Shown: positions 35,395 through 53,405 of the stretch, in pieces
Position numbering within the stretch: the first letter of the stretch is position 1
How the letters are laid out: every line of letters begins with the position of its first letter
Assembly (NCBI RefSeq): GCF_002224265.1
Contig: NZ_CP012882.1
Coordinates: forward strand, 682,001-746,000
Source: Vibrio vulnificus NBRC 15645 = ATCC 27562
GTDB lineage: Bacteria; Pseudomonadota; Gammaproteobacteria; Enterobacterales; Vibrionaceae
Direction of reading: 5' to 3'
Length of the DNA stretch: 64,000 bases
Notes under the pieces: generated by a model
Database searches by the model: none
Told to the model about the DNA's origin: nothing
Seen by the model: the letters and a program-made list of their open reading frames with translations, nothing else
Made by a program: the position numbers and the translations under genes

Positions 35395-35422
35395 GTAGGA
35401 ACTCATCCTACATACACGATTA
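35395..35422 (+). promoter_or_regulatory. Shared composite motif, copy 1 (TamA-like gene)
   Basis: The dyad GTAGGA-ACTCA-TCCTAC (35395-35411) is followed after 6 bp by GATTA (35418-35422). It lies 69 bp before the GTG start at 35481. Confidence 0.7.
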
Positions 35423-35480
35423 ACGTGCTTTCTTGAGTGCGATTAGCCTAGTTGGGTGTCAAACCCACTAAGGCAGATTT

Positions 35481-37187
35481 GTGGCTTCTCTCGTTCAAAA
35501 ACTCGTTGGAATTTCTGTACTCGTCTTCATACCGTTTGGGGACGTATTGGCTGCCGAATTTACTATTCAAGGTTTATCCAAACCGCTTGAGCGGAATCTG
35601 GAATATCACCTCATGCCGTTAGCGAATACTTCAGCCAATGACATTCCCGTAAGTCAGCTCAGTAAGTTGGTTAGGTCAGCATTGAACCCTTATGGCTACT
35701 ACCATTCTAAGCTCAGTGTTCAGAGAGAGCCGAACGATCTCATTGTATTAGATGTGGAGCTTGGTGAGGTCGTGTTGGTAGCAAAATCTAATATCGTCGT
35801 GTCTGGTGAAGCCTCAAACGATGAAGATTTCCTCGGGTTAGTCAATCAAGCCCAGCTTAAACAAGGGCAGCCGCTACTGCATTCTGAGTATGATACGCTA
35901 AAACGAAACTTGACTTCATTAGCCCAGAAAAAAGGTTACTTGGATGGGCGCTTTATCGAATCGTCTTTGGAAGTCATCCCGAGCATGAATCAAGCAAATG
36001 TGAACCTACATTTCTCGAGTGGTTCTCGTTACCAGTTTGGTTCGTTATCGGTACCAACGTCGGGTATTGAGCCAGCTCGAATAGAAATAATGCGAACGTT
36101 TGAGCGGGGTGACGATTTCGACACCTTGAAACTGAACCAATATCAAGCAAATCTCTCTGAGACCAATTGGTTTCGTAGTGTAATTGTGAAAGCGGATTTT
36201 GATGGGATATCCAATAACCTTGAGGTGCCGATAGAAGTGATTGCAGAGCCAAACGCACGAAATATCGTGCAAGTCGGTGGTGGATATTCGACAGACTTGG
36301 GATTACGCGCTTCGTTGAATTGGACCAAACCATGGTACAACACGCGAGGACATAGCTTTGAGACACAGGCGTACGCGTCAAAAGCGGAACAGTCGCTATT
36401 GCTTGGCTACAAAATTCCGACCCAAAATGTCCTGACGGATTACTACGGTATTCAGTTTGAATCTAAACATGTCGACTATCGTGATACGTCGAGTTTTTCC
36501 AATGATTTGTCGTTTGAAAAGCATTGGCAGCTAGACAGTGATTGGCAAAGCACTATGCACGTTCGTTATTTGCAAGAGCGTTATCAACAAGCGTCGGAAA
36601 ATAACGACTCACAGATGCTATTGCCGGGAGTAACGTTTTCATTGCTTGATCGCAAGAATGATCAATTAGAAATAAAACACCGTCACGTTTACTCATTGGA
36701 ATACTCGGATCCGAACTTTTTCTCGGATTCTCGTTTGCTGCGTATTGAAGGCAACAGTGTGCTGTCTTGGGATATCAGCGAAAAACATAAGTTTCACTTT
36801 CGTTCGAATGTCGGTATCAATGTCGCTGACGCTCTGAGCGATATCCCCTCATCATTACGCTTCTTTGCGGGCGGTGATGGCAACCTTCGTGGTTATGGTT
36901 ATGAGTCAATCTCTCCGAGAGATGAAAATGGCGATTTAACGGGTGCCCGTTACATGTTTACTGCTGGTTTGGAATATCAATATCAGGTCTACCACCAACT
37001 ATGGCTTGGTGCATTTTACGATGTTGGTGATGCCTTCAACGATAGCGTAGATTGGAAAAGTGGAACAGGGTTGAGTTTGATATGGAACTCAAAATACGTG
37101 CCCGTTAAAGTGGATTTTGCTTACGGTTTAGATGCTCCTCAAGGAGACCAATTCCGCGTTCACTTCTCACTAGGCACGCAGTTTTAG
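35481..37187 (+). CDS. TamA-like outer-membrane protein (POTRA plus beta-barrel)
   Basis: The 568-residue Omp85-superfamily protein starts at GTG 35481 after AAGG. It has a signal peptide (cleaved near AEFT, residue ~25), about three POTRA-like periplasmic repeats (~25-245), and a C-terminal 16-strand barrel ending with the aromatic residue F. The loop-6 motif appears as RGYGYESISPRD. TamA normally pairs with TamB to move phospholipids or autotransporters to the outer membrane, but no tamB follows here. This copy is therefore probably a paralogue with a special role. It has its own copy of the shared promoter motif and a strong terminator. Confidence 0.85.
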   Translation: MASLVQKLVGISVLVFIPFGDVLAAEFTIQGLSKPLERNLEYHLMPLANTSANDIPVSQLSKLVRSALNPYGYYHSKLSVQREPNDLIVLDVELGEVVLVAKSNIVVSGEASNDEDFLGLVNQAQLKQGQPLLHSEYDTLKRNLTSLAQKKGYLDGRFIESSLEVIPSMNQANVNLHFSSGSRYQFGSLSVPTSGIEPARIEIMRTFERGDDFDTLKLNQYQANLSETNWFRSVIVKADFDGISNNLEVPIEVIAEPNARNIVQVGGGYSTDLGLRASLNWTKPWYNTRGHSFETQAYASKAEQSLLLGYKIPTQNVLTDYYGIQFESKHVDYRDTSSFSNDLSFEKHWQLDSDWQSTMHVRYLQERYQQASENNDSQMLLPGVTFSLLDRKNDQLEIKHRHVYSLEYSDPNFFSDSRLLRIEGNSVLSWDISEKHKFHFRSNVGINVADALSDIPSSLRFFAGGDGNLRGYGYESISPRDENGDLTGARYMFTAGLEYQYQVYHQLWLGAFYDVGDAFNDSVDWKSGTGLSLIWNSKYVPVKVDFAYGLDAPQGDQFRVHFSLGTQF

Positions 37188-37194
37188 CGGGCAT

Positions 37195-37234
37195 AAAAAA
37201 GGCTCTCATCCATGTAGATAGAGAGCCTTTTTTA
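37195..37234. terminator. Bidirectional terminator
   Basis: GGCTCTC (37201-37207) pairs with GAGAGCC (37221-37227), extended by A6/T6 flanks, between the convergent TamA-like and phospholipase D-type genes. Confidence 0.85.
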
Positions 37235-37245
37235 TGTTTGATGGC

Positions 37246-38697
37246 TCAGAGTTCGAACTCACCATTCAGTTGCTTGAATATCCAGTTAGGCGCTTTGTGC
37301 CATCCACCATAGTTTGGATTCTTAGTATGGGTTTCATTCATTGATTGCCACTGAGTTTGGCCTTGTTCATCTCGAGATACTCGCCAAAACAGTTCATCTT
37401 GTTGTCGAGTTAAGTAGTGCATGACATGTTCTGCAAAGGTTTCGCTTTGGATCAACACACCAAATTCCACATTGAGGAAATCCGATCTTGGGTCGAAGTT
37501 TGATGAGCCTATATAAGTCAGCCGATCATCGAGTATCACGGTCTTGTTGTGATAATAAGTATCCGCATGGAAGTAGTGGTCGTCATTTTTCGCTTGTTTT
37601 TTGTACTCCAGTATATTTACGCCTTTATCCAACAACGTTTGACGATGTTCCTCGTAATAAGCCGGAATAAACCCAGAATCATTAGAAGCAGAGGAGTTCG
37701 TCATTAACGTGATGTCCGCTTTTTGCTCCATCAAGGTATCAATAAAGGCAAATTCACCATCACTTGGTACCACGTAAGGGGTTGAAATCACCGCTTTGTT
37801 CGCTGTAGTTATTTGTTGCCAAACTTGGCGCTCTGCCCGCTTTCTAAAGTAAGGCTTGTTGTTCTCTAACTTTTTTAATGAATCGAAAACAGGGGTGACT
37901 TGCGCAGTGATGAAATTGGGGCTGGTCAGTTGTTTAACCTGTTTTTCAACTTCAGCCAGAATGATGTTTCTGTCTATCTCCTCTTTATTGACTGCTTTGG
38001 CAAACGCGGAATAGTTTGGGTTTACTTTAACGATATTTTCTATTGGTGTGACATGCTTGCTGTGCCAAAGCTGTTGGTAGTTTTGGTCGAACGCTTGAAT
38101 GATGCTGCCTTTAAACAACACATCCATATCAAAGAAGTTGGCTTTGCGGCTGTAACCAAAATAGTCGTTGCCAATGTTGCGTCCACCTATAATCATCCAT
38201 TGATGGTCGACGTTGAAATACTTCTCGTGTAGACGGTTGTCCAAACGTTGTTGATGAGTAGAGAAGTTGATGGCGCGCCCAATCCAGCCTGACTTACGTG
38301 AATCAAACGGATTGAATAAACGGATTTGAATGTTGTTGTGAGCGCTGAGATCAGCAAGCCATTTCTCATTAAACACCAATAAATCATCGAGAGTGAGTCG
38401 AACTTGCACGCCTCGATCCGCTGCATGTTTGAGCTCATTGAGTAGCATCAAGCCAAGCGTATCACTTTCCCAAGAAAAGTAGGTCATATCGATGCTTTGT
38501 TGAGCATTTCTAACCAGTTCAACTCGACGAGCAAAGGCTTCTGGAGCAGTAGGAATTAAGTAAACATCGGCTTGATGCTGAGTAGTTTGCCAATTGGCTT
38601 CAAAATCCGGTTCAACTTCAGGGTAAGGCTGGGCACAGCCGACCAATAGCGTGCTGAAGGTAAAGATCAGCAGAGCACGAAGGGCGTTAGGAAACAT
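37246..38697 (-). CDS. Phospholipase D/cardiolipin-synthase-like lipoprotein
   Basis: The 483-residue protein has a lipobox (LLVGC) and two HKD motifs, LHEKYFNVDHQWMIIGGRN (~160-178) and YYHNKTVILDDRLTYIGSSN (~385-404), each with HxKxxxxD and the following G-x-x-N. This is the signature of phosphatidyl transferases. Size and motifs resemble E. coli ClsC (YmdC), which makes cardiolipin from PE and PG, but ClsC is not a typical lipoprotein. AGGAAGG precedes the ATG. It lies 100 bp behind the esterase-fold gene, with a terminator hairpin between them, and has no copy of the shared motif of its own. Confidence 0.85.
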   Translation of the reverse strand: MFPNALRALLIFTFSTLLVGCAQPYPEVEPDFEANWQTTQHQADVYLIPTAPEAFARRVELVRNAQQSIDMTYFSWESDTLGLMLLNELKHAADRGVQVRLTLDDLLVFNEKWLADLSAHNNIQIRLFNPFDSRKSGWIGRAINFSTHQQRLDNRLHEKYFNVDHQWMIIGGRNIGNDYFGYSRKANFFDMDVLFKGSIIQAFDQNYQQLWHSKHVTPIENIVKVNPNYSAFAKAVNKEEIDRNIILAEVEKQVKQLTSPNFITAQVTPVFDSLKKLENNKPYFRKRAERQVWQQITTANKAVISTPYVVPSDGEFAFIDTLMEQKADITLMTNSSASNDSGFIPAYYEEHRQTLLDKGVNILEYKKQAKNDDHYFHADTYYHNKTVILDDRLTYIGSSNFDPRSDFLNVEFGVLIQSETFAEHVMHYLTRQQDELFWRVSRDEQGQTQWQSMNETHTKNPNYGGWHKAPNWIFKQLNGEFEL

Positions 38698-38737
38698 GAG
38701 TAAACCTTCCTAATTATGTTCAAGGAATAAGGATGAA

Positions 38738-38759
38738 AAAAGCCAGCGAACTGGCTTTT
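38738..38759 (-). terminator. Intrinsic terminator after the esterase-fold gene
   Basis: AAAAGCCAG/CTGGCTTTT has a CGAA loop and a T-rich tail on the minus strand. Confidence 0.7.
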
Positions 38760-38798
38760 AGACATTCGGTAATGAGTTTTTAGTGACTGAGGATGACG

Positions 38799-40838
38799 TT
38801 ACATGTGACTAAGAATCAGCCCAAGTTCCTCGAGACCGTTGAGGCGGCCTTTGCGCAGTTTCGGATCGACGCCTGAGTGATGAGCATTGTCCCAGTCTTG
38901 TGTGGATTGAATACCGCCATCGTTATCGATCAGCAATACTCGGTCAGTCGCGGTGTTGTATTGGAAGTCCTCAAATAGACGTTCGCTAAACCACACGCGA
39001 GAGAGTTTGTTCATCATCGCTTTGTCTTTGCTGCTTGGTCGAACACTTGAGCCATCAAGCTTAAATGCTTTGTTAAATACAAATGGTAGTTCCGATGCAT
39101 TGCAAGCGGCCACAATACAACTGATGCTCTTAAGTAAATCGCCAACATCGAGATCGCCATTTTCACCTTTGGTGTTGTAAGTCCATACGTTGAATCCAGG
39201 TGTGTAGTCAAAGTAGTAGAAGCTTGGTGTCGCTCCTGTTGCTTCTTCACGTGAGACCTTATGACGATTTGGACCCGTGAAGAGCAAATCATGCAACACA
39301 GTTTTGAATTGCTGCATGTTTTTGGCCGCACCATTCAGTTCGCGTTCATCGTTGGGGAAGAAGTCAGCCAGAGCAAGTAACTCAGTGGTCGAATCAGAGT
39401 TCCCCAAACCGAAGAACAACTTAGTCATCGCCTCATATGCTGTACTCGGCAGCAGTTCCAATAAGTCAGAAAGATCGAGTTCAACCGATGCCGAATCGCT
39501 GAGTAGTGAACGATATTCCGCGCGTAAGCGATTCAGATTTGTTTCCGATTCTAGCCACTCCACTATGGATTCGACAATTAAGGTCTCATCGCCACTTTCA
39601 ATGATTTCTGGCGCTTCTTGGCTCAAGATTTCAAGGATAGTAGGGATCAAAAAAGTCAGGCTCGGCAGCATGCCCAGAGTATTGCTTTCTGCACTGTTTG
39701 AGCCAATTACAGTCGGTACGATCCAATCACTCTCAATGGCTTGTTCAATAAAGTGATGGCCTGGTACTTCTTTCACTAGAAACGCCGGTGGGCGGTGCTC
39801 GATGTAAGGAGCAAATGGCATCAACGTGGCTAATGGGCTGTTGTCTCGTGTTGGACTTATAACCGGAATATTCGCAGCGGTCAGTACCCAGTTCTTAAGG
39901 CGTTGAATAGGGTCAAGCATGTCGCTCTGAACTTTCATGACCTCATCAAGTGGTACTAATGCAAGATCTTCAACGCTTTGCTCTGGTCGTTGGCTCTTGG
40001 CAACATCGTAACTTTTGTACTCAAAGCCGTAAGCGTTGCTTTGCATGATGGCACGTTGAAAGTGCTCACCAGCGATTGCAGCATCGCCTTTTGATTGCTG
40101 CAAAATACCTACCGACATTGCACCTGCCCCCTGACCCATAAGTGTCACGTTTTGCGGATTACCGCCAAATGCCGCTATGTTTTGCTGAACCCATTCAAGC
40201 GCGTGTTTTTGATCGCCTAGACCAAAGTTACCACCTTCTGGGTTGTCCAAACCATCGACCCAAACACTGCCCAACAAGCCCAAACGATAGTTAAAAGTAA
40301 CAGCAATAAACGGGTTACCATCGTCTGCACCTTGTGCAACAACCATATCACCGTGAATCAACGGTTCTGAGCCCGCGCCGTGTTCAAAGTCGCCACCGTG
40401 AATAAAGACATAAACGGGTAAATCTGCATACGCTTCTGTCCCGGCTGGTCGCCAAATGTTCAGGTTCAAGCAATCTTCTGATTGCGTTTGGGCCGTGGTT
40501 TTTAACTGCGGACACGCATCACCGAACTGAGTTGCATCAATGTTGCCTTCAAGCGGTGCGACAATACTGTGTTGAAAGCGGTCTGCTTGCGCAAACTGGA
40601 TACCTTTGAACGCTTCTACTGCTGCCAGTTTTTCACCTGAATCAAGAGGCGTGATGACAAGAGACTCTTTGGTGGCTTGAATGGTCGCATCGCCAATTTC
40701 CAAAGAGATTTGCTCTGGTGGTGACGGTTGCAACGGCTGTGGATTGTAAGGAACGCTTGGTTTACTTGAATCATCACCACAGGCAGCTAAGGCAAGAGTG
40801 ATAGTAATAGCTAAAGTTGAGCGATTGAGTAAAGTCAT
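38799..40838 (-). CDS. Type-B carboxylesterase-fold lipoprotein lacking the catalytic serine
   Basis: The 679-residue product has a lipobox (LALAAC at residues ~15-20) and a carboxylesterase type-B fold, with the oxyanion-hole motif VYVFIHGGDFEHGAGSEP and FAQADRF...FGDACPQL near the start. The nucleophile elbow, normally GESAG, reads GQGAGAMSVG, so glycine (codon GGG at about 40125-40127) replaces the serine. Hydrolysis by the usual mechanism is therefore not expected. The protein may be a binding or scaffold pseudoenzyme, as neuroligins are in animals. The start ATG 40836-40838 directly yields the lipoprotein signal. A shared promoter motif lies 160 bp upstream. Confidence 0.8.
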   Translation of the reverse strand: MTLLNRSTLAITITLALAACGDDSSKPSVPYNPQPLQPSPPEQISLEIGDATIQATKESLVITPLDSGEKLAAVEAFKGIQFAQADRFQHSIVAPLEGNIDATQFGDACPQLKTTAQTQSEDCLNLNIWRPAGTEAYADLPVYVFIHGGDFEHGAGSEPLIHGDMVVAQGADDGNPFIAVTFNYRLGLLGSVWVDGLDNPEGGNFGLGDQKHALEWVQQNIAAFGGNPQNVTLMGQGAGAMSVGILQQSKGDAAIAGEHFQRAIMQSNAYGFEYKSYDVAKSQRPEQSVEDLALVPLDEVMKVQSDMLDPIQRLKNWVLTAANIPVISPTRDNSPLATLMPFAPYIEHRPPAFLVKEVPGHHFIEQAIESDWIVPTVIGSNSAESNTLGMLPSLTFLIPTILEILSQEAPEIIESGDETLIVESIVEWLESETNLNRLRAEYRSLLSDSASVELDLSDLLELLPSTAYEAMTKLFFGLGNSDSTTELLALADFFPNDERELNGAAKNMQQFKTVLHDLLFTGPNRHKVSREEATGATPSFYYFDYTPGFNVWTYNTKGENGDLDVGDLLKSISCIVAACNASELPFVFNKAFKLDGSSVRPSSKDKAMMNKLSRVWFSERLFEDFQYNTATDRVLLIDNDGGIQSTQDWDNAHHSGVDPKLRKGRLNGLEELGLILSHM

Positions 40839-40990
40839 TGTTATGTCCAAAAAGTCATTTGGTGCGTGCACCGAAAATGTTAAACGGCATCGAACAAGCG
40901 ACGTCCTAACGCTTTGGTATTAATCCGTGAATGATTGGATGGCTTGCTGTATTGATGGCTCAAATGGTAGGGCATTGATGACAAATTCAA

Positions 40991-41018
40991 TAATCGCCTT
41001 TGTAGGATTCAGTCCTAC
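40991..41018 (-). promoter_or_regulatory. Shared composite motif, copy 2 (esterase-fold gene)
   Basis: Read on the minus strand: dyad GTAGGA-CTGAA-TCCTAC (41018-41002), 6 bp, then GATTA (40995-40991). It is oriented toward the esterase-fold gene. Confidence 0.7.
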
Positions 41019-41073
41019 CATCCAATGGCCTACCAATGTGTGTTGTTTCTTTGTGTGCTATTTCTTTGTGTGA

Positions 41074-42726
41074 TTAGAAGCGATAACCCAAGTTCAAGGT
41101 CAGTGAGTCACGTGTTTCGCCTTTGTTGTAAAGCATGGTCAAGTTGTAGTTCTTACCTATTTGCTTATTGAAACCTGCCAGGAATGCCCACTCGTCAAGC
41201 TCGACACCGATGTCGTAATCGAACTCGATATCACCGGTTTTTACTCGGCCATCCATACGAGAGTCCAAACCTTGGTATTCAGCACCCACAAAGAACTGAG
41301 TCCGGTAATCCACTAACTGATAGCCAAGCATTGGTTGAACGGTATAAATGCCGTCACCCCAGTCGTCTAAGCCCTTTAAACGTGTTTGAGAGTACGTGCC
41401 GGTAACGGAAGCAAAAAACTCTCTGTAACCAACTGATAACGTTGTACCCACACCGCGCAAGTCGTACTCAAGATGAATCGGCACATTGACTCGTCCGCGA
41501 TTACATAGAGCAGACAATCCATCGCAGAACTTATCCCCCAAGCCTGGTAGACGGTCATTGAGCTTGTCTTTGAGGTATTGGCCTCCTTCGCCTGTGTAAG
41601 CTGCATCCACATTGGCATCGACATTGATTTTGCCGACATAACCAAAAACATTCCAAAAGGGAAGAATGTTAACGTCACCACGAATACTGAAACTTTCTGC
41701 GTTTACAATACCAACAGTGTCTTCTGGATCGAATAGGTCGTTCAAACGTACGCCATCAATAACGAAATCGTTAAAAGGGATGTTCATATTCTGGTTACGG
41801 TAAGCCATCGACACGCCAAACGGCAGAGGCAAATCGATACCTTGACGGCGTACAATATCGCCCATTAACGGGAAAGTGCGGTCAAGCTTTACACCTGTTT
41901 CTTGCATGCGTGGGTCAGAAACTTCATTCAAGTGTTTCTCATCCAACACTTGCACACCAATGTCATCCTCATAGATGGCAACAGGCTTAAGAGTGCTGAC
42001 CACTTTGAGCGGTTTCTTTTTGCTTGAGCCAACGATTTCAGTGTGTTTGCTCGCAATCACAAGCTTGCCAGAATCCAGCTTTTGAAAGCGGATCTCTTGG
42101 TGGTACGTATCCACGTTGTATATGTGGTGTGTGAATGGCTTATCGTTGGTAATGACCATGCGCTTTGGTTCGCCGTTGACGATTTGGATATCAACGCTTA
42201 AGAAACGAAAATAGGCGATATCTTGCGGAAGGCCGTATTTCGAGTAGTTGAAGCTGACAATGACATTGCCGTTTTTATCTTCTTTTGCTCGTACCGATGA
42301 AGGATCAAAGCTCTCTGCGTAGTTGCGTAGACGATATTCTGTACGCGTGAAGGCTTCGATTTCATCGAGCACTTTTTCGTTCTTATCGAGCTCCTTAGGG
42401 TTGTATTTGATGCGTAGATCGATATTGCCCTTGCTGTCCGTGTTCTTTACAAGAAACACCGAAGAGTCACGTGCCTCGTTGCCGATTTGAACGGTTCGGT
42501 GAACATGCTCAACCAAGTGTTCACCTTGTGCTAGAGAACTGATGGCCAGTTTCGGTAGATCACGGCTGATACCGTATTTGTCGAATAGCTCGCGACCTTG
42601 TTCCATAACTTCACGATAAGTTGTCTCTTCTGCGGCGAAGCTAAAAGTGGGGGTAGTAAGCATTAGTGCGCTCGCTAGCACAGTAAGAGAAGATGTCTTG
42701 CTAGCGCGTATTTCAAAAAAACTCAT
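41074..42726 (-). CDS. Outer-membrane barrel protein with large N-terminal domain, unknown
   Basis: The 550-residue protein has a signal peptide ending ...PTFSFA (cleavage near residue 31), a region of about 300 residues rich in beta strands, and a C-terminal barrel-like half with alternating strands and terminal LTLNLGYRF, the usual last-strand signal for outer-membrane insertion. Two cysteines (KFCDGLSALCN) may form a disulfide. I do not recognise the family. ATG 42724-42726 is preferred since it begins the signal peptide and has GGAA upstream. A shared promoter motif lies about 190 bp upstream. Confidence 0.7.
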   Translation of the reverse strand: MSFFEIRASKTSSLTVLASALMLTTPTFSFAAEETTYREVMEQGRELFDKYGISRDLPKLAISSLAQGEHLVEHVHRTVQIGNEARDSSVFLVKNTDSKGNIDLRIKYNPKELDKNEKVLDEIEAFTRTEYRLRNYAESFDPSSVRAKEDKNGNVIVSFNYSKYGLPQDIAYFRFLSVDIQIVNGEPKRMVITNDKPFTHHIYNVDTYHQEIRFQKLDSGKLVIASKHTEIVGSSKKKPLKVVSTLKPVAIYEDDIGVQVLDEKHLNEVSDPRMQETGVKLDRTFPLMGDIVRRQGIDLPLPFGVSMAYRNQNMNIPFNDFVIDGVRLNDLFDPEDTVGIVNAESFSIRGDVNILPFWNVFGYVGKINVDANVDAAYTGEGGQYLKDKLNDRLPGLGDKFCDGLSALCNRGRVNVPIHLEYDLRGVGTTLSVGYREFFASVTGTYSQTRLKGLDDWGDGIYTVQPMLGYQLVDYRTQFFVGAEYQGLDSRMDGRVKTGDIEFDYDIGVELDEWAFLAGFNKQIGKNYNLTMLYNKGETRDSLTLNLGYRF

Positions 42727-42782
42727 GACGATTTCCACTCTGAATAGCCTCAAACCTTTGAGACTCAGACAGTTAATGTGTC

Positions 42783-42801
42783 ACTGAACATCTTGTTCAG
42801 T
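42783..42801. promoter_or_regulatory. 19-bp palindrome upstream of the barrel protein gene
   Basis: ACTGAACA-TCT-TGTTCAGT is a perfect 8-bp dyad with a 3-bp centre, the size of a TetR-type or similar operator. A second dyad CTCAAA-CC-TTTGAG lies at 42749-42762. The cognate regulators are unknown. Confidence 0.4.
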
Positions 42802-42902
42802 TAGATAGATGCGTTTGCTGTGATTGACATTGTGAATGCAGTGTTTTTAATTGCATTTCGTTAATCAATGAGAGGATTTTATGAGGAGCAGAGAAATCCC
42901 GT

Positions 42903-42930
42903 TAATCGCTTTTGATGGATAGTATCCTCG
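42903..42930 (-). promoter_or_regulatory. Shared composite motif, copy 3 (barrel protein gene)
   Basis: Read on the plus strand: TAATC (42903-42907), 6 bp, then GATGGA-TAGTA-TCCTCG (42914-42930). On the minus strand it points toward the barrel protein gene. Confidence 0.6.
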
Positions 42931-42962
42931 CTTTATGGGTGAGGTAGGAATCGAGCCCAGCG

Positions 42963-43003
42963 AAAAAACAAAACGCCCCGCAGAGCAGAAGCAATGCAGG
43001 GCT
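42963..43003 (-). terminator. Terminator of the AaeXAB-like operon
   Basis: An imperfect stem (GCCC.GCA with TGC.GGGC, 42975-43002) is followed on the minus strand by GTTTTGTTTTTT. Confidence 0.6.
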
Positions 43004-43028
43004 TTAGTGTTAAAAACAGAGACGATAG

Positions 43029-44384: not shown

Positions 44385-44397
44385 AACAATCACCTAA

Positions 44398-45258: not shown

Positions 45259-45268
45259 GGGATTTGCC

Positions 45269-45481
45269 TCAAAAGATGGTAATGAATTGACCAATAACGC
45301 CAGTAAAAATCACAGTTAGGCTCAGCTCAGCGAGTGCAGGAAATGCAACGTATTTATGGAACCCCAGTTTTGTCGCAACGGTTCCAACCAAAATGGTGAG
45401 CATATAAGCCAATGTGATAACCAGCAACAAGGGTGGGAAGTAGACTTCGCCCCACACGAGTTCATGTGGCATTGAGTTCAT
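45269..45481 (-). CDS. DUF1656 small membrane protein (AaeX-like)
   Basis: The 70-residue protein begins MNSMPHELVWGEVYFPPLL and has two membrane helices, the DUF1656/AaeX pattern. It is found at the head of FUSC efflux operons; its role is unclear. A second ATG at codon 4 is possible. A shared promoter motif lies 60-87 bp upstream. Confidence 0.85.
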   Translation of the reverse strand: MNSMPHELVWGEVYFPPLLLVITLAYMLTILVGTVATKLGFHKYVAFPALAELSLTVIFTGVIGQFITIF

Positions 45482-45540
45482 GGTGTTTTTCTCTATTAAC
45501 TTGATGAATGGAAAGATAAGGCAAATGATGATGGCGGTGA

Positions 45541-45568
45541 TAATCGCATTTGTAGGGCCGAACCCATC
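45541..45568 (-). promoter_or_regulatory. Shared composite motif, copy 4 (AaeXAB-like operon)
   Basis: Plus-strand reading: TAATC (45541-45545), 6 bp, then GTAGGG-CCGAA-CCCATC (45552-45568). It points toward the DUF1656 gene on the minus strand. Confidence 0.65.
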
Positions 45569-45739
45569 AAACGAAAGGTGTTATGTGCTATATGGAGTGA
45601 ATAGTGCAACCAAACAGTTTTTTGGACAGAGAAAATAAAAATAAAATTATTTTTCGATTTACCTGATGTTCATTACAGACCACTAAGTCATTCAATTTTC
45701 GATAGTTATTTATCAATGCTTGCTTTTGAATATGCGAAG

Positions 45740-45767
45740 TGATGGTTTCATCCTTCAAATAGGATTA
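45740..45767 (+). promoter_or_regulatory. Shared composite motif, copy 5 (antiporter gene)
   Basis: TGATGG-TTTCA-TCCTTC (45740-45756), 6 bp, then GATTA (45763-45767). The left half is shifted by one base, but the spacing to GATTA is exact. It lies about 140 bp before the antiporter gene. Confidence 0.5.
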
Positions 45768-45905
45768 CGAGTTGTGAGTTTTTGTTCCTAATATTCGCTT
45801 CGAAGCAAACGAGATGCTTTTAAAATTAAATGATCCAACAAATATGAGTGACAGATTATTCGTTAGATTATTTTGTTTTTCTATTTTTAATAAGAGTAAA
45901 TTGTC

Positions 45906-47621
45906 ATGGAAATTATTTCTAACCTTTTTGACATGGCACCATTTGTTGCTCTCTTTATTACGCTCTCTCTCGGTTATATGGTAGGTAAAATTACCATTGG
46001 TCGATTTGTTCTTGGCGGTGTTGCCGGAACATTATTAATGGGTGTAATTATTGGGCAATTTGGTGTTCATATTGATCCCGGCGTAAAAAGCATTTTCTTT
46101 GCGCTCTTTATTTATGCAGTAGGGTATCAGGGTGGTGCGCAGTTCTTCAAAGCATTGAACTTTAGAACTATCAACATTCTACTTTCTGCTGTTGTGATGA
46201 CGGTTTCTGGCCTGCTTTGTGTATTAGCAGCAGCTTGGATGTTCGACCTAGATAGAGGCACGGCAGCAGGCCTAGCAGCGGGTGGTTTGACTCAATCGGC
46301 AATCATAGGTACAGCGGGTGATGCGATCGCACGTCTTGGCGGTGTGACAGAAGAAGCGAAGCACTTAATGCAGACCAATGTTGCAGTGGGCTACGCAGTC
46401 ACATATATCTTTGGTTCGCTTGGTCCAATTCTTATGGTGACGTGGGTGTTCCCAACATTGATGAAGTGGGATATCCGAGCAGAGGCGATTGCTCTAGAGG
46501 AGAAAAATTCGAATGGCAAGCACGAGCTAGCACCGGGTGAATTCAATGCAGTAACGGCATTGGTTACACGAGCATTTAAGGTGAGCAAAGATGGCGGACT
46601 AGCAGGTAAAACCTTAGCTCAGCTAAACAAAAAATCGTTGACTGCTTGTATTGAGTTAATTCAACGCGATGGCAAAGTGCTAGAGGCGGATAAATACACC
46701 GCACTGAAAGAAGGCGACGTCATTGTTGTCACTGGCCGTCGCCATGCGGTACATCAACTGCAAGCTGGTTTGGCAGACAACGAGGTTGTACTACCAGAAG
46801 GCTATGAAATTATTGAAGAAAACCGCCAGCTGATTGCTGACAACCGCAAACTGATTGGTAAGTCACTGCAAGAGATCAAAGAAGCATCAAATCAAGGCTC
46901 CATGCGTGGTATCTATGTGACGGATTACATTCGTGAAGGCCGTTCAATCGAAATGACACCGGACCTTGTGGTGAAGAAAAACGACGTCATTCAGCTTACG
47001 GGTACTGCAAAAGACATCAATCGCGTTGAGAAAAACATCGGTCAACGCATGGGATCTTCAACCATGACGGACTTCGTTGTCCTTGGTATGGGTATGGTGC
47101 TTGGTCTGCTTATTGGTCTTATCAGCTTTAAGATTGCCGGTATCCCCGTCACGATTGGTTCTGGTGCAGGTTGCTTGATCTCTGGATTGATTGTTGGTTG
47201 GTTGCGCAGCCGTAATCCACACGTTGCTCAGTTCCCTGTGGGCGCCGCGAACTTTGTTCGAGATTTCGGTTTGGCAGCATTTGTGGGCATTGTAGGCCTT
47301 GAGGCTGGCCCTCAAGCGGTCGATACCATTAAAGAACACGGTATGTCCCTGTTGTTCCTTGGCATGGCCGTGACGATTATCCCTCAGATTATTTCGTTCT
47401 TCTTCTCATATTTTGTATTGAAGATTAAGAACCCAGTTGAAGCGCTTGGCTGCGTTACAGGTGGACGAAGTGCGAACCCAGCATTTGCTGCTTTGATGGA
47501 AAAAACAGGCAACGCAACGCCAGTATTCTCATTCACCGTGACTTATGCAGTCGCCAATGTACTACTCACCCTGTGGGGACCAATTATTGTCGGCATTATT
47601 ACTTTAAATGCAGGCATGTAA
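45906..47621 (+). CDS. aspT: Aspartate:alanine antiporter (AspT, AAE family)
   Basis: The 571-residue protein has two membrane halves of about five helices each (residues 1-175 and 385-571) around two TrkA-C-like regulatory domains (~200-375). The repeated family motifs are AGGLTQSAIIGTAGDAI in the first half and CVTGGRSANPAFAALMEKTGN in the second. AspT swaps external aspartate for internal alanine. With the decarboxylase encoded next, uptake of aspartate, proton-consuming decarboxylation and alanine export generate proton motive force and raise internal pH. It carries its own copy of the shared motif. Confidence 0.9.
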   Translation: MEIISNLFDMAPFVALFITLSLGYMVGKITIGRFVLGGVAGTLLMGVIIGQFGVHIDPGVKSIFFALFIYAVGYQGGAQFFKALNFRTINILLSAVVMTVSGLLCVLAAAWMFDLDRGTAAGLAAGGLTQSAIIGTAGDAIARLGGVTEEAKHLMQTNVAVGYAVTYIFGSLGPILMVTWVFPTLMKWDIRAEAIALEEKNSNGKHELAPGEFNAVTALVTRAFKVSKDGGLAGKTLAQLNKKSLTACIELIQRDGKVLEADKYTALKEGDVIVVTGRRHAVHQLQAGLADNEVVLPEGYEIIEENRQLIADNRKLIGKSLQEIKEASNQGSMRGIYVTDYIREGRSIEMTPDLVVKKNDVIQLTGTAKDINRVEKNIGQRMGSSTMTDFVVLGMGMVLGLLIGLISFKIAGIPVTIGSGAGCLISGLIVGWLRSRNPHVAQFPVGAANFVRDFGLAAFVGIVGLEAGPQAVDTIKEHGMSLLFLGMAVTIIPQIISFFFSYFVLKIKNPVEALGCVTGGRSANPAFAALMEKTGNATPVFSFTVTYAVANVLLTLWGPIIVGIITLNAGM

Positions 47622-47640
47622 TTTAAATAAATTAGAAAAT

Positions 47641-47668
47641 CTTATCGCCTAATTAACTAGGCGATAAG
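47641..47668 (+). promoter_or_regulatory. Intercistronic hairpin between aspT and asdA
   Basis: An 11-bp perfect stem CTTATCGCCTA/TAGGCGATAAG has a 6-nt loop. No T-run follows, so it is more likely an mRNA-stability or processing element than a terminator. Confidence 0.5.
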
Positions 47669-47714
47669 GGAAACATTATCAAAATTTAGTAAATAATAGA
47701 CTAAGGTAAATATT

Positions 47715-49310
47715 ATGACCACGCAAAATACAACGATTGATTTTTCAAAGTTTGCAGATTTAAGCCCATTTGAATTAAAAGACAAACTCATTGAAGTGGC
47801 AAAAACGGTTCCTGACCGCATTTTATTAGATGCAGGTCGTGGTAACCCAAATTTTTTAGCGACACTGCCACGTAAGGCATTCATTCGTTTAGGTGAATTT
47901 GCGGTGATGGAAGCAGAGCGTACCTATTCATACCTTGATGGTGGTTTTGGTGGTATTCCAGATGGAATGGGTATCGTTGAACGTTTTGATACGTTTGCGA
48001 GCAATAACAAACAAGATCAAGGTGTGCAGTTTATCGAAAAGTCGTTGAGCTACGCAAAAGATCGTCTAGGTCTACAGAAGCAAGCATTCTTGAATGAACT
48101 GGTTAACGCATACCTAGCGTGTAACTACCCAGTGCCACCTCGAATGCTGACAAACATTGAAACTGTCGTGAAGCAGTACATCGCGGAAGAAATGTATGGC
48201 CCTATGCCAATCACAACAGATTTCGATCTGTTTGCAACGGAAGGTGGCACCGCATCAATGACTTACACGTTCCAAACGATGTTTAACAACGGGCTACTCC
48301 AAAAAGGCGATAAGGTTGCGTTGATCACGCCAATCTTTACTCCTTATTTAGAGATCCCGGAGCTTTCTGAATATGAGTTGGAGATTGTTGAGTTACGCCT
48401 TGATGAGACCACATGGCAACTACCAATGTCTGAAATCGAGAAACTGGCGGATACAGACATCAAACTGCTTTGTGTCGTTAACCCAGCGAACCCTGCATCA
48501 GTCAAATTTTCGGATGAGACGCTAGATAACTTAACGAACTTCGTCAATGAGCAACGCAGTGATTTATTCATCATTACTGATGACGTATACGGCACGTTTG
48601 CAGACGATTTTATATCACTGTTTGCGAAACTGCCATACAACACGCTGTGTGTTTACTCGTTCTCTAAATACTTCGGTGCAACAGGTTGGCGCTTGGGCTC
48701 GATTGCGATTCAGCACAACAACGTGTTTGACGACGCAATGCGCAGCCTTCCCGAAGCGCGTCAACTTGAGTTGGACGATCGTTACAAAACGCTAACTCCG
48801 GAACCACGTGAAATCAAGTTTATTGACCGTATCGTAGCAGATAGCCGCAGTGTTGCACTTAATCACACTGCAGGTTTGTCGCTTCCTCAACAAGTTCAAA
48901 TGGCACTATTCGCTCTGAATTGCTTAATGGACTCAGAGCAAAACTACAAAGCAGCGTGCAAACGCATCATCCGTGAGCGATACAAAACCCTGTACAAAAA
49001 CATGGGTGTAGAAATTGAAGAAAACAAAGATCGTGTGGACTACTACACACTGCTTGAGCTCGACACTTTAGGTGGGAAATTATACGGGCCAGCCTTCGTT
49101 GATTGGTTCAAAGCGAGCGAAAAGGGCAAAGATTTCCTTTTCCGCCTTGCACATGAAACCGGCGTTATCTTACTTCCGGGCAAAGGTTTCGATGTGGTAC
49201 ACGCTTCTGTTCGAGTATCCCTGGCTAACCTTACTCACCACGAATACGAGCTCATTGGTCGTGCAACGCGCAAAGTGTTGGATGAGTACTTTGCCGAGTT
49301 CCAAGGCTAA
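47715..49310 (+). CDS. asdA: Aspartate 4-decarboxylase (bifunctional with aspartate transaminase)
   Basis: The 531-residue PLP enzyme is of fold type I and aminotransferase class I/II. Its length matches aspartate beta-decarboxylase (about 530-545), not ordinary AspAT (about 400). The PLP lysine lies in VYSFSKYFGATGWRLGSI, and CVVNPANPASVKFSDETL and FIITDDVYGTF match cofactor-binding motifs. It converts L-aspartate to L-alanine and CO2, consuming a proton. It follows aspT by 90 bp and precedes pdxY, which supplies its cofactor, so a three-gene functional unit is likely. Confidence 0.92.
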   Translation: MTTQNTTIDFSKFADLSPFELKDKLIEVAKTVPDRILLDAGRGNPNFLATLPRKAFIRLGEFAVMEAERTYSYLDGGFGGIPDGMGIVERFDTFASNNKQDQGVQFIEKSLSYAKDRLGLQKQAFLNELVNAYLACNYPVPPRMLTNIETVVKQYIAEEMYGPMPITTDFDLFATEGGTASMTYTFQTMFNNGLLQKGDKVALITPIFTPYLEIPELSEYELEIVELRLDETTWQLPMSEIEKLADTDIKLLCVVNPANPASVKFSDETLDNLTNFVNEQRSDLFIITDDVYGTFADDFISLFAKLPYNTLCVYSFSKYFGATGWRLGSIAIQHNNVFDDAMRSLPEARQLELDDRYKTLTPEPREIKFIDRIVADSRSVALNHTAGLSLPQQVQMALFALNCLMDSEQNYKAACKRIIRERYKTLYKNMGVEIEENKDRVDYYTLLELDTLGGKLYGPAFVDWFKASEKGKDFLFRLAHETGVILLPGKGFDVVHASVRVSLANLTHHEYELIGRATRKVLDEYFAEFQG

Positions 49311-49332
49311 TTAATCTAGCTCAATAAGAATA

Positions 49333-49356
49333 AGCCTCGGCATTGTCGAGGCTATT
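49333..49356 (+). terminator. Weak terminator-like hairpin after asdA
   Basis: AGCCTCG/CGAGGCT has a 7-nt loop. The following ATTCC is a poor T-tract, so readthrough into pdxY is plausible. Confidence 0.4.
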
Positions 49357-49434
49357 CCGACCAAATAAGCACAGTGCGCGGCATTGTGTTTATTTAGTCG
49401 CCAAGCTAACTAACTTCCCAACTAAGAGTGACTT

Positions 49435-50292
49435 ATGAAAAGTATTATTTCTATTCAATCTCATGTGGTCTATGGCCACGCTGGTAATAGCTCCGCTGTC
49501 TTCCCAATGCAAAGAATGGGGCTTGAGGTATGGCCAATTCATACGGTTCAGTTCTCTAATCACACACAATATCAACAAGGTTGGACGGGGCAAAAATTTG
49601 GTTCTGACGATATTCGTTCATTAATGCGTGGTTTAGACAACATTGAAAAGCTCAGTGAATGTGGTGCGATATTGTCCGGTTATCAAGGCAGTGCCGACCA
49701 ATGCCGCGCTGTCGCCGAAGCGGTAAGTTTGGTAAAGGACCGTAACCACAGCGCACTCTATGTGTGCGATCCTGTTATGGGGGACCCAGATAAAGGCTGT
49801 ATTGTAGAAGATGGTGTCAAAGAGGCTATCAGACAACACTTGTTGCCCATCGCCGATGTAATAATTCCAAACCAGTTTGAATTGAGTGAGTTGACAGGCG
49901 TCAAAATAGACTCAATTTATGATGCGGTCACCGCTTGTAAAAAAGCTTTGGATCTGGGACCGAAAATGGTGCTGGTGAAACACCTTCATGCATTAAAGGA
50001 TGATGCTTTCAGTATGATTCTAGCGATGCCGAAAGCATGTTATTTGGCCCAGCGTCCAAGCATTGACTTTGATTTACAACCAGTTGGAGTCGGGGATTTG
50101 ATTTCCGCCATTTTTACTGCTTGTTTGGTGAAAAATATGTCTCCAGTTGCGTCATTTCGTCACGCTCACAATGCAGTTTATGGTGTATTAGAAATCACTA
50201 AAGAATATAACGCATGGGAACTGCAGACGATCAACGCTCAATATGAATTTGTCGAGCCGACTCATGAGTTCAATATCGTGAAAATTGCTTAG
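49435..50292 (+). CDS. pdxY: Pyridoxal kinase PdxY
   Basis: The 285-residue ribokinase-fold protein begins [27 protein letters not shown], a hallmark of PdxY. It also has [16 protein letters not shown] and the anion-hole motif [10 protein letters not shown] (normally GTGDL). It phosphorylates pyridoxal to pyridoxal 5'-phosphate with ATP. Its position behind the PLP-dependent aspartate decarboxylase gene suggests dedicated cofactor supply. No copy of the shared motif precedes it, consistent with co-transcription. Confidence 0.92.
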
Positions 50293-50346
50293 CGCAACAG
50301 CTTAGGAGTTTAGTTAAACACTATAGAAACTAGCCATCATTGCATT

Positions 50347-50374
50347 GATGGATAGCATCCTACATCCGCGATTA
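50347..50374 (+). promoter_or_regulatory. Shared composite motif, copy 6 (patatin gene)
   Basis: GATGGA-TAGCA-TCCTAC (50347-50363), 6 bp, then GATTA (50370-50374). It lies about 120 bp before the patatin-like lipoprotein gene. Confidence 0.7.
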
Positions 50375-50493
50375 CGGTTATTCAATGCGCTTGGCTATAG
50401 TACCCTCATACAACGAAACGGACTTCATTTTGACCCCATTAATTTCCAACTGAGTCTCTGGTCATGCACCAGAGACATTAAATGAGAATAATT

Positions 50494-51663
50494 ATGAATC
50501 GTTTAATTTCCTCTGGTGTGACTGTTGCGCTCTCGCTATTGGTAGCGGCGTGCAGTTCACCCCATACGCTGGATGTGCGCGTTTCTCAGACCAACTATAA
50601 AGATGTTGAAATCGCAAATTCAACACCGAAAGAACCACTTCGAATGTGGGCCAATGAGGCGCCCGATTTTCTCTATTCGGCGCATAACAAAACCACACCG
50701 ATAAAAGTGACGGGTGACCAACTCAATATTTTGGCGTTGTCAGGTGGCGGCGTAAATGGTGCATACGGTGCAGGTGTTTTGATGGGCTTACAAGAGAAAG
50801 GTGAACTGAAAGATTACGCCATCATCACGGGGATCAGTGCGGGAGCCTTGATTGCCCCGTTTGTTTTCACTGGTGGCGAAGCGATGCCAAAGATGAAAGA
50901 GGTGATGCTTAACATCAACGATAAAAACGTTCTGGGTAAAAAAAACTTCTTAAACACGCTGTTTAAGGACGCCTTTACAGATGGTAAAACCCTTTATGAT
51001 TTCATTGCAGACGCGTACCCAGAGCCATTCATTGAAGCGATGGCACAGCAACATCGTAATGGAAAGCGTCTTTTTATCGGCAGTACCCATTTTGATTCCG
51101 GTGAACTGGTGATTTGGAACATTGGCGCTATTGCAAACAGTGACTTGGCGAACAAATCTGAATTGATATACAAAGTGCTTGCAGCGAGTGCATCCATTCC
51201 TGGAGTCTTCCCACCGCAATTTATCGAGGTTGAGCATGAAGGAGAAACATTAGAAGAGTTACATGTAGATGGTGGTCTCGCGGCTCAAGTGTTCTTTAAT
51301 CCGTCTAACTTTAACTACCACCAAATATCGGATGCATTGGGGTTAGAAAAAGCGCCGCAGTTAGATGTGATTCGTAATGGTGTACTGAAGGCTCCTTATC
51401 GACCACTAAAAGACAAAGGTTTTGACCTTGTATCGAAAAGCGTCGAAAGCCTTACGTTAGCTCAAACTCGGGGTGATCTGTATCGCATGAAATACATTAG
51501 TGAAAACAATGATATTGAGATGCAGTTTACCTATATCGACCAAGATTTCGGATACGCAAAAGTGACGAAAGATATGTTCGACCCCCACTACTTGCTGACG
51601 ATCTACGAATATGGATTCAAAAAAGCCACTCAGGGACACCTTTGGGTGACTGAACTCCCTTAA
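50494..51663 (+). CDS. Patatin-like phospholipase lipoprotein
   Basis: The 389-residue protein has a lipobox (LLVAAC, residues ~14-19) and a patatin domain: oxyanion motif LSGGGVNGAYGAG (~81-93), nucleophile elbow GISAG (~115) and the aspartate in VDGGLAAQ (~255). Both catalytic residues are present, so it should cleave acyl chains of phospholipids or similar esters in the periplasm or at the outer membrane. The ATG at 50494 has GAGA upstream and starts a normal lipoprotein signal; an ATG four codons earlier is less likely. The next gene follows after 17 bp. Confidence 0.9.
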   Translation: MNRLISSGVTVALSLLVAACSSPHTLDVRVSQTNYKDVEIANSTPKEPLRMWANEAPDFLYSAHNKTTPIKVTGDQLNILALSGGGVNGAYGAGVLMGLQEKGELKDYAIITGISAGALIAPFVFTGGEAMPKMKEVMLNINDKNVLGKKNFLNTLFKDAFTDGKTLYDFIADAYPEPFIEAMAQQHRNGKRLFIGSTHFDSGELVIWNIGAIANSDLANKSELIYKVLAASASIPGVFPPQFIEVEHEGETLEELHVDGGLAAQVFFNPSNFNYHQISDALGLEKAPQLDVIRNGVLKAPYRPLKDKGFDLVSKSVESLTLAQTRGDLYRMKYISENNDIEMQFTYIDQDFGYAKVTKDMFDPHYLLTIYEYGFKKATQGHLWVTELP

Positions 51664-51680
51664 CACAGGAAAACAATACA

Positions 51681-52109
51681 ATGAAAAAAGCCGTTATAAC
51701 ACTAATGATGCTTACTGCTTCCGCTACTGCATTTGCACAAGGTGGCGTCCATGTTGATCAGCAAAAAGTGGATAGTGACATGCAGCAACTTTCTGCAATC
51801 AAAGAAGAAGGCGCTGCATTTATCATGATTGATGAGGATTCGAGTTACGTTGCGATCGAGTACGTCGGCAAATGGGAAGAGATCAACAATTATGTGTCAC
51901 ATAAAGAAGCCAAGCAACGCAAACTGGAAAAAGTGAATAAGCGGTTTGTGTATTCGCAAACGGGTGAAACGCTGGCGTCACTAGAGCAGAAGATCGTTGA
52001 CCACATTCAAGCAGATCAACCTAAATATTTCAGTGTGGATGTCTACCGAGATTACCATGGTGCCTCTGGTGAATTTAACTATTTGGCTCGTGTTGTTGAG
52101 TACAACTAA
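51681..52109 (+). CDS. Small exported protein of the patatin operon, unknown
   Basis: The 142-residue protein has a signal peptide (MKKAVITLMMLTASATAFA) and a mature part with no cysteine or clear motif. It contains a central basic/acidic helix (HKEAKQRKLEKVNKRF) and a C-terminal strand-rich region (KYFSVDVYRDYHGASGEFNYLARVVEY). I do not recognise the family. It lies 17 bp after the patatin-like gene, shares its motif-bearing promoter and ends at a strong terminator, so it may assist that lipoprotein. Confidence 0.7.
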   Translation: MKKAVITLMMLTASATAFAQGGVHVDQQKVDSDMQQLSAIKEEGAAFIMIDEDSSYVAIEYVGKWEEINNYVSHKEAKQRKLEKVNKRFVYSQTGETLASLEQKIVDHIQADQPKYFSVDVYRDYHGASGEFNYLARVVEYN

Positions 52110-52116
52110 AATGGAG

Positions 52117-52144
52117 AAAACCTACTAACTTTAGTAGGTTTTTT
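52117..52144 (+). terminator. Intrinsic terminator of the patatin operon
   Basis: AAAACCTACTA/TAGTAGGTTTT has a 4-nt loop and ends in TTTTTT. Confidence 0.88.
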
Positions 52145-52242
52145 ATGTCGATGAGAAGGAACTCAAACGCAGTTTGTTACCGTTACCAATTAGCAATGCT
52201 ATTATGTTTTAATTAAATAACTCTAAAATGTAAGCACAACCT

Positions 52243-53154
52243 ATGAACTTTAGTTTTGAACAACTTCTCGCGTTCGTGACCGTTTATGAACAGCTCTCGT
52301 TTAGTAAAGCAGCGATCAAACTCAATAAGCACCGAACTACGATAGGGCAGGTGATTACCAACCTTGAAGACCAACTGGCGGTCAACTTGTTTGAACGAGT
52401 GGGGCGTTCGGTAGAGCCAACAGAAGATGGTCACCTTCTTTATCACTATGCTAAATTAACCATCGAGCAAGCGCGTACTTTCGATAAATTGGCGCTAAGC
52501 CTCTCTTATGGTGGATTAGAAAGCGTCAACATCGCTTATTCTAGTGTGATTCCTCATCGCGCTTTGGTTGAAATCCGCCAGCAACTACTTCGCGACTTTC
52601 CGTTAATGCGCGTGAACTTTCTTGTTAGGAATAAACAGGACATCAAAAGAGGCATAGATAGTGGCGAGTTCCATTTTGGTATCGTCAATGTGCATGACCG
52701 TCAGGCGATGTATAGCTTTGATGCTACCTTCCTTGGGCATTTCGAATTTTTCCCTTTTGTTCAAAAAGGTGGAGAGCTATCTAGGTTGGAGAAAAGTGCA
52801 GTCCTGGTGGCTCTGAAAAACAGCAAGCAATTTGTATTGCGATCTTTTATTGAAGAAGGCATGGCAGAGAAAATCATTTACAGCTCAGATAACGAAGCCG
52901 TCGATCAACTTGCTCTAGTGATAAAGATGGTAGAAGCTGGTCTGGGGTGGGCGCTACTTCCTAAAACATTAGCACACACTGAGTTTGCCAATCACGCCAT
53001 TGAGCCAGTTGAAGCCGATGAGATGCTAGAGGGCTTCAAGTTTGGCTTCGCGCTTTGGTGTCCACATTCCAAACAAATTGTTGATATTAAAAAATCGTTA
53101 ATCACCGTGATAAACAATTATCGCGAGCGATTTGAAGATGTTCTCCGTCGTTAA
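52243..53154 (+). CDS. LysR-family transcriptional regulator
   Basis: The 303-residue protein has an N-terminal helix-turn-helix (FVTVYEQLSFSKAAIKLNKHRTTIGQVITNLEDQL) and a LysR substrate-binding domain. It is the only DNA-binding regulator within the 35-54.6 kb gene set that carries the shared dyad motif, and dyads of about 15-17 bp with AT-rich flanks suit LysR proteins, so it is the best local candidate to bind that motif. That link is inference. It has no copy of the motif itself. No clear Shine-Dalgarno site precedes the ATG. A terminator follows. Confidence 0.88.
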   Translation: MNFSFEQLLAFVTVYEQLSFSKAAIKLNKHRTTIGQVITNLEDQLAVNLFERVGRSVEPTEDGHLLYHYAKLTIEQARTFDKLALSLSYGGLESVNIAYSSVIPHRALVEIRQQLLRDFPLMRVNFLVRNKQDIKRGIDSGEFHFGIVNVHDRQAMYSFDATFLGHFEFFPFVQKGGELSRLEKSAVLVALKNSKQFVLRSFIEEGMAEKIIYSSDNEAVDQLALVIKMVEAGLGWALLPKTLAHTEFANHAIEPVEADEMLEGFKFGFALWCPHSKQIVDIKKSLITVINNYRERFEDVLRR

Positions 53155-53176
53155 CTCATAGACTCATCCAATTTCT

Positions 53177-53205
53177 AACAAGGTTCAATTAGAGCCTTGT
53201 TTTCG
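53177..53205 (+). terminator. Terminator of the LysR gene
   Basis: AACAAGG (53177-53183) pairs with CCTTGTT (53195-53201) and is followed by TTCGTTT. Confidence 0.6.
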
Positions 53206-53232
53206 TTTCAGTTAACCTTAAGTTCGAGTTTT

Positions 53233-53260
53233 GATGGATTACACCCTCTATACAGGAGTG
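53233..53260 (+). promoter_or_regulatory. Possible degenerate copy 7 of the shared motif
   Basis: GATGGA-TTACA-CCCTCT (53233-53249), 6 bp, then GAGTG where other copies have GATTA. The dyad is weak. It lies about 155 bp before the last barrel protein gene. Confidence 0.35.
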
Positions 53261-53362
53261 TGAGGTATTCCTTTTTTGGCTTATTCTAGTCTCGCTCTAT
53301 GGGGAAGCCCAGAGCAAAAAGTGTTTTTACCATATGACCGCTGCACGGAAGCAGATTTTTCA

Positions 53363-53388
53363 GCTGGGTTCAGTAACCCGGCTTTTTT
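53363..53388 (+). terminator. Intrinsic terminator inside the leader of the second barrel gene
   Basis: GCTGGGTT/AACCCGGC (53363-53370, 53375-53382) has a CAGT loop and TTTTTT at 53383-53388. It ends only 17 bp before the ATG at 53406, downstream of any promoter near the motif copy, which suggests conditional termination. Confidence 0.65.
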
Positions 53389-53405
53389 ATCTGAGGGTTA
53401 ACTTT

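Follow-up and report, generated by a model that had tools for sequence, protein, structure and literature searches.

What do the promoters of a cluster of envelope, efflux and aspartate genes in Vibrio vulnificus NBRC 15645 = ATCC 27562 have in common, and which protein reads them? The stretch analyzed (the window; 64,000 nucleotides (nt), C2:682001-746000 in a two-contig genome of 5.007 Mb) contains six copies of a 28-bp motif, a 17-bp dyad followed by GATTA. An earlier note on this DNA had taken the motif for a regulator site and had named a LysR-type protein encoded at 52243-53154 as the nearest candidate regulator. Judged from sequence comparison, the motif is very probably the binding and activation site of that protein. 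Its sequence, spacing, orientation, co-occurrence with the protein and conservation were established by computation.

An extended element at six promoters

The letters of the window were re-inspected. All six copies were present at the coordinates and on the strands first reported, with GATTA exactly 6 bp past the 17-bp dyad in each (Table 1). The dyad formula of the earlier note, G(TA/AT)GGR-N5-YCC(TA/AT)C, held strictly for four copies; it failed for those at 42903 (CGAGGA...TCCATC) and 45740 (TGATGG...TCCTTC...GGATTA), both of which keep the spacing and GATTA. Perfect 6+6 dyads were found in only 2/6 copies. The core box read A-N11-T in three copies, T-N11-T in two and A-N11-A in one; a strict T-N11-A was found in none of the six.

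The original observation was correct but understated: the element is longer than first described. Each of the six sites has a -10-like hexamer starting 21 nt past GATTA; five of these hexamers fit TAnnnT, the exception being TTATCT at site 4. A weight matrix was trained on the six window sites and 20 sites from other genomes. It was built without the hexamer, so that the offset of the hexamer provided a fair test. Sites scoring at least 22 bits (169 distinct sites) were collected from 82 loci, chosen for containing the LysR gene or the motif, and from two stretches flanking the window. TAnnnT lay at the fixed offset in 148/169 sites, against at most nine at any other of 40 offsets; in a thinned set of 95 sites with <65% identity the counts were 84 and at most eight. 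By hexamer position, the first T was present in 154 of the 169 sites, the A in 160 and the last T in 168. Positions 3 and 15 were both A or T in 152, giving a core like the T-N11-A of LysR-type sites. Of the 169 sites, 165 had a gene starting in their own direction within 500 nt, at a median distance of 100 nt. Ten sites were inside an open reading frame (ORF) of a simple gene call; most such ORFs are small and unnamed (not checked individually), and two are the beginnings of LysR and esterase-like genes.

With up to 3 mismatches allowed, the consensus matched the window three times and none of 100 dinucleotide shuffles. With the weight matrix the six sites scored 25.4-35.6 bits, high because they had helped to build it, and nothing else in the window exceeded 9 bits, which bears out the earlier statement that the window holds no further copy. 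Five mononucleotide shuffles peaked at 18.1, 12.9, 6.5, 14.8 and 6.9 bits. The 5.0-Mb genome was then scanned with a pattern including the -10 hexamer. Exactly the six window sites were returned at 0-2 mismatches; at 3 mismatches it matched five more places, and the reversed control likewise gave five. Judged by this pattern, the regulon comprises six promoters within 15 kb in this genome. The pattern without the -10 hexamer matched 22 places at up to 2 mismatches. Five were copies in the window, whose sixth copy, at 3 mismatches, falls outside this limit. Of the remaining 17, C2:651736 and C2:175499 were inspected and were rejected since both lie within long ORFs. Several of those left have one sequence in common, which presumably resembles the end of 16S rRNA.

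Co-occurrence of the element with the LysR-type protein

The exact motif, GGRN5YCCWWCAN4CGATTA, was scanned in 296 genomes of the family, a search of the kind that the earlier note had put forward as a check. It was found at 73 places in 49 genomes, against 2 places in 2 genomes for the reversed control. The LysR protein was scored as present where a match to the 52243-53154 protein reached an E-value of 1e-60 or better (68/296 genomes). Motif and protein were found together in 47 genomes, the motif only in 2, the protein only in 21 and neither in 226. Exact hits in G286, G203, G167 (C2:1330527) and G281 (C2:797331) have flanking sequence in common and score below 0 with the -10 region; they were judged to be chance matches in one gene family. 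These hits account for both motif-only genomes and for G167 of the 47, and their removal leaves 46 genomes, all 46 with the LysR protein. A further hit, G088:C44, is doubtful (9.7 with the -10 region), and G088 has another hit. In 18 of the 21 genomes with the protein and no exact motif, a site of at least 20 bits was found in the stretch examined near lysR or aaeX (locus L074 was taken as genome G094, with which its contig positions agree).

The protein has the N-terminal winged helix-turn-helix domain and C-terminal substrate-binding domain of the LysR type, on which model and fold matches agree. In the best segment it is 100% identical to a protein of Vibrio sp. 05-20-BW147 and 97% identical to one of Vibrio hepatarius. 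The DNA-binding domain varies little among 20 LysR proteins, the window protein and 19 others with 47-97% identity to it. Among the 62 different lysR genes of the collected loci, 16 were preceded by a site no more than 330 bp upstream, beside the gene of the proposed regulator. All 16 point away from lysR, many into an aaeX-like operon. A tree of the 62 proteins did not separate those with and without a site in their locus beyond shuffles (only three are without). The assignment of the site to this protein, as proposed in the earlier note, is thus supported by co-occurrence in the 296 genomes, by the upstream sites and by the little-varying DNA-binding domain.

Gene order and orientation vary between species among the loci listed while the sites persist, and dozens of related marine bacteria appear to keep a site before the same genes for outer-membrane proteins and efflux, differently arranged. 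Six similar copies close together could also reflect chance or a repeat family, mobile or dispersed. Only spaced key bases are common to the copies, however, and the flanks differ; the placement and the -10 offset are fixed and the controls were almost empty. Both were rejected on the shuffles, the reversed controls and the fixed -10 offset, and are given next to no weight. The view that the motif is a regulator site and not a mobile repeat is upheld by the placement at gene starts, the fixed hexamer and the retention of sites despite rearrangement.

It was also considered that the site belongs to another regulator, with the lysR gene merely linked to the cluster. Co-occurrence, which among regulators was scored for the LysR protein alone, cannot separate a regulator from a passenger: the barrel protein, found in 44/296 genomes, is likewise confined to genomes with LysR (44/44), which shows a linked set and cannot on its own tell the two apart. 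The dyad has the core spacing of LysR-type sites, however, and the 16 sites just upstream of lysR include L068 and L070-L073, loci that of the gene set hold only lysR and the aaeXAB-like operon. Moreover, lysR was the sole regulator recognized among the genes at 32.8-54.6 kb (not every small ORF was scanned). Another regulator is held to be very improbable.

Several points weigh against the LysR protein as regulator, including the restriction of the co-occurrence test to that protein. The species are related, and Fisher's p = 1.6e-35 for co-occurrence, calculated with relatedness ignored, thus overstates independence. The negative control, though in favor of the protein, is imperfect: of 35 genomes lacking the protein but having an aaeA homologue, 20 were scanned over 1.5 kb upstream of aaeA and gave no site (best 7.8 bits), and these homologues are more distant. 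The window lysR had no site of its own in the weight-matrix scan. Three of the 62 lysR copies (L081, L163 and L170) had no site in their locus. G053 and G097, whose LysR matches are 55% and 36% identical, gave no site in the stretch examined (best 14.9 and 2.7 bits). The best match in G237, one of the 18 genomes above, scored 20.2 bits and lies ∼4 kb away; that in G242 scored 18.2 bits. GATTA is less fixed than in the window, being perfect in 121/169 sites, with CGATTA in 82/169, and the conservation of its letters was partly built into the search.

Proposed activation and relation to known systems

In the plan described for LysR-type proteins, a tetramer engages one strong site for recognition and a weaker one for activation and shifts on ligand binding (PMC11739112); the arrangement found here fits this plan. 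Binding by the LysR protein, the tetramer geometry, activation in preference to repression and the position numbering are what we infer for the six promoters. If the hexamer is assumed to span -12 to -7, GATTA would lie at -38 to -34 and the dyad at -61 to -45. One LysR dimer would bind the dyad, with its T/A-N11-A/T core centered near -53. Its partner dimer in the tetramer would touch GATTA, the putative activation half-site, in the place of a -35 element. The -35 itself is poor, and this contact would assist RNA polymerase at the -10 hexamer, which starts 21 nt downstream of GATTA. On sensing of the ligand by LysR, the six operons would rise together.

The TTA of GATTA may double as a poor -35, since one of the six window promoters, site 3, passed a sigma-70 scan with TTAACG placed 18 nt before TAAAAT. 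Taken further, LysR would bind the dyad only and GATTA would mainly be a degenerate -35 (TTA and the three bases that follow it, spaced 18 nt from the -10). Site 3 fits this arrangement, as does the first base after GATTA, which favors A over G (67 vs 9 of 169 sites). The other five window sites failed the scan, however, and conservation extends to the G and A that precede TTA and lie outside any -35, though the search selected for them. Binding at the dyad only is regarded as unlikely.

Repression by the LysR protein was weighed against activation. LysR proteins can repress, and the sites upstream of lysR may overlap the lysR promoter. The site nevertheless stops beside the -35 position and leaves the -10 uncovered, and the -35 letters are poor, as in activated promoters; repression is accordingly held to be distinctly unlikely, and activation is preferred.

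The AaeXAB-like pump hints at a ligand. As a tentative guess, this may be a carboxylic amphiphile, aromatic or not, that causes envelope stress and exits via the pump. In Serratia, aaeXAB gives resistance to aromatic and other carboxylic acids, and, according to the same report, none of the compounds tried proved to be a ligand of its AaeR (PMC11264596). Conceivably, one LysR sensor runs an outer-membrane remodeling and export program, widely shared among marine vibrios, in answer to one amphiphilic compound. Its core would comprise the efflux pump, the barrel protein, the TamA-like protein, two lipid-acting lipoproteins and the serine-less esterase-like lipoprotein; hydrolases, the amino-acid module and a fatty-acid cis/trans isomerase (the last in a single genome) would be species-specific additions.

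BenM, CatM, CbnR, OxyR and DarR resemble the window protein in fold, domain order and T-N11-A-type core, and, in the general scheme, share the second element beside the -35 (PMC11739112). They differ in target sequence and genes, with at most ∼20% identity in the structural matches. AaeR/aaeXAB of Escherichia coli and Serratia likewise pairs a LysR-type protein with an aaeX-aaeA-aaeB-like operon, and in relatives the lysR gene and the operon are often divergent with a site between them. The window proteins fall below the cut-offs for AaeR (NF007917, 49.4 bits vs an equivalog cut-off of 425), AaeA (196 vs 400) and AaeB (44.9 vs 870), and at least 10 further genes share the site; the system can therefore be said to work like AaeR/aaeXAB and not to be it. 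NCBIfam gave 49 matches to the LysR protein, and none of the 25 matches listed exceeded its own cut-off. The best was AceR of Acinetobacter, yet at 92.5 bits it is far below its cut-off of 500. The VarR regulon of Vibrio cholerae, compared by description only, is alike in that resistance and efflux genes lie divergently to the gene of a LysR-type regulator, and differs in its target genes (PMC5595328).

The promoters appear to form a new, widely conserved regulon of the LysR kind, of which searches of an open-access library, without subscription papers or preprints, turned up no description. A precise regulator-site pair is thereby proposed for a gene set for which no described regulator was found, and several uncharacterized envelope proteins would be tied into one program. 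The >150 alignable promoters with fixed spacing of dyad, second element and -10 should be useful for studies of LysR activation.

Genes of the cluster and targets in relatives

Table 1. Promoter sites and genes of the cluster (window coordinates; aa, amino acids).
Feature	Position	Strand	Supporting match or remark	-10-like hexamer	Proposed to drive
Site 1	35395-35422	+		TAGCCT, 35444-35449	TamA-like gene
Site 2	40991-41018	-		TACCAT, 40964-40969	Esterase-like and phospholipase D lipoprotein genes
Site 3	42903-42930	-		TAAAAT, 42876-42881	Barrel gene
Site 4	45541-45568	-		TTATCT, 45514-45519	aaeX/aaeA/aaeB-like genes
Site 5	45740-45767	+	Weakest, GGATTA, 25.4 bits	TAATAT, 45789-45794	aspT-asdA-pdxY
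Site 6	50347-50374	+		TATAGT, 50396-50401	Patatin and 142-aa genes, perhaps lysR by read-through
TamA-like Omp85 protein, 568 aa	35481-37187	+	Pfam Omp85 and POTRA		
Phospholipase-D-family lipoprotein, 483 aa	37246-38697	-	Pfam PLDc_2 and PLDc		
Carboxylesterase-fold lipoprotein, 690 aa	38799-40871	-	Pfam COesterase		
Barrel-like outer-membrane protein, 550 aa from ATG	41074-42726	-	Longest ORF to 42753		
AaeB-like FUSC-family protein, 454 aa	43029-44393	-	Pfam FUSC, ArAE_1		
AaeA-like HlyD-family adaptor, 298 aa	44398-45294	-	Pfam HlyD_D23		
AaeX-like small membrane protein, ∼70 aa	45269-45481	-	ORF; stop placed by length of relatives		
AspT aspartate-alanine antiporter	45906-47621	+	TIGR03802, 671.2 bits (cut-off 547)		
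AsdA aspartate 4-decarboxylase	47715-49310	+	TIGR03801, 730.1 bits (cut-off 435)		
PdxY pyridoxal kinase	49435-50292	+	NF004398, 366.6 bits (cut-off 292)		
Patatin-family lipoprotein, 393 aa	50482-51663	+	Pfam Patatin		
142-aa exported protein	51681-52109	+	No Pfam match		
LysR-type regulator	52243-53154	+	Pfam HTH_1 58.8 bits, LysR_substrate 52.8 bits, both above cut-off		
Omp85-barrel protein after lysR	53334-54572	+	Pfam Omp85, 27.9 bits		

The first gene after the 169 sites was aaeX-like in 29 cases, aaeA-like in 3, barrel in 28, esterase-like in 24, patatin in 20, AspT in 15, TamA-like in 8, of the 142-aa family in 6, BamA-like in 5 and PdxY in 5; other families followed 22 sites, and 4 had no gene within 500 nt. 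The label of an envelope and aspartate regulon in the earlier note fits the window. Over the whole set, however, AspT follows only 15/169 sites, and the aaeX operon, the barrel protein, the esterase-like lipoprotein and patatin are commoner targets. The other families included an M20 peptidase (3 sites), a beta-lactamase-fold protein (3) and an unnamed 252-aa family (5); single sites were followed by an amidohydrolase, a pyridoxal phosphate-dependent decarboxylase, a fatty-acid cis/trans isomerase (CTI), a porin and a glycine-transporter-family protein. Many target products start like exported proteins, as judged by eye. The isomerase (L129:6529-8925, 916 bits) was seen after a site in one genome and would fit a role in membrane stress. 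Small exported proteins of ∼110 aa with similar starts were seen after sites outside the main cluster (L209:1333-1680 and L150:8967-9305, both on the minus strand) and are a possible extra member of the regulon. The cluster of several relatives also contains a protein of 392-393 aa with no Pfam match (L137:8941-10119, L165:3995-5176), the start of which presumably resembles peptidase C45-type acyltransferases.

In the esterase-like lipoprotein a glycine replaces the catalytic serine on alignment to p-nitrobenzyl esterase. GQG[AS]GA was present in 29/29 distinct family members examined and GxSAG in none. An active type-B carboxylesterase, with serine in GxSxG, was thus rejected; the protein is conserved and probably non-catalytic, and may bind rather than cleave.

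The TamA-like protein scored 588.2 bits against NF047950, close below the equivalog cut-off of 625, and was not assigned to TamA. Pfam and NCBIfam scans of the barrel-like protein gave no match. It ends in LGYRF and shows many strands in a poor model (mean predicted local distance difference test (pLDDT) 53.6, three sequences); its weak structural matches to FadL, CymD and AlgE were not used because of this pLDDT. A relative of the AaeX-like protein in L113 matches DUF1656.

The window lysR comes after the patatin and 142-aa genes and is preceded by a weak promoter match (52083-52112). An 11-pair stem-loop at 52117-52142, between the 142-aa gene and lysR, has arms that contain CCTAC and GTAGG; it may be a terminator or attenuator, or be unrelated. 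The Omp85-barrel family encoded after lysR is linked in many relatives, and 5/169 sites precede a member elsewhere; in the window the weight-matrix scan gave no site before this gene. A transposase gene at 33603-35039 (minus strand), presumably IS1182-like, lies upstream of site 1 at a distance of ∼360 bp. The near relative L115 has an RpiB-like gene directly after the site, and no transposase ORF was seen there.

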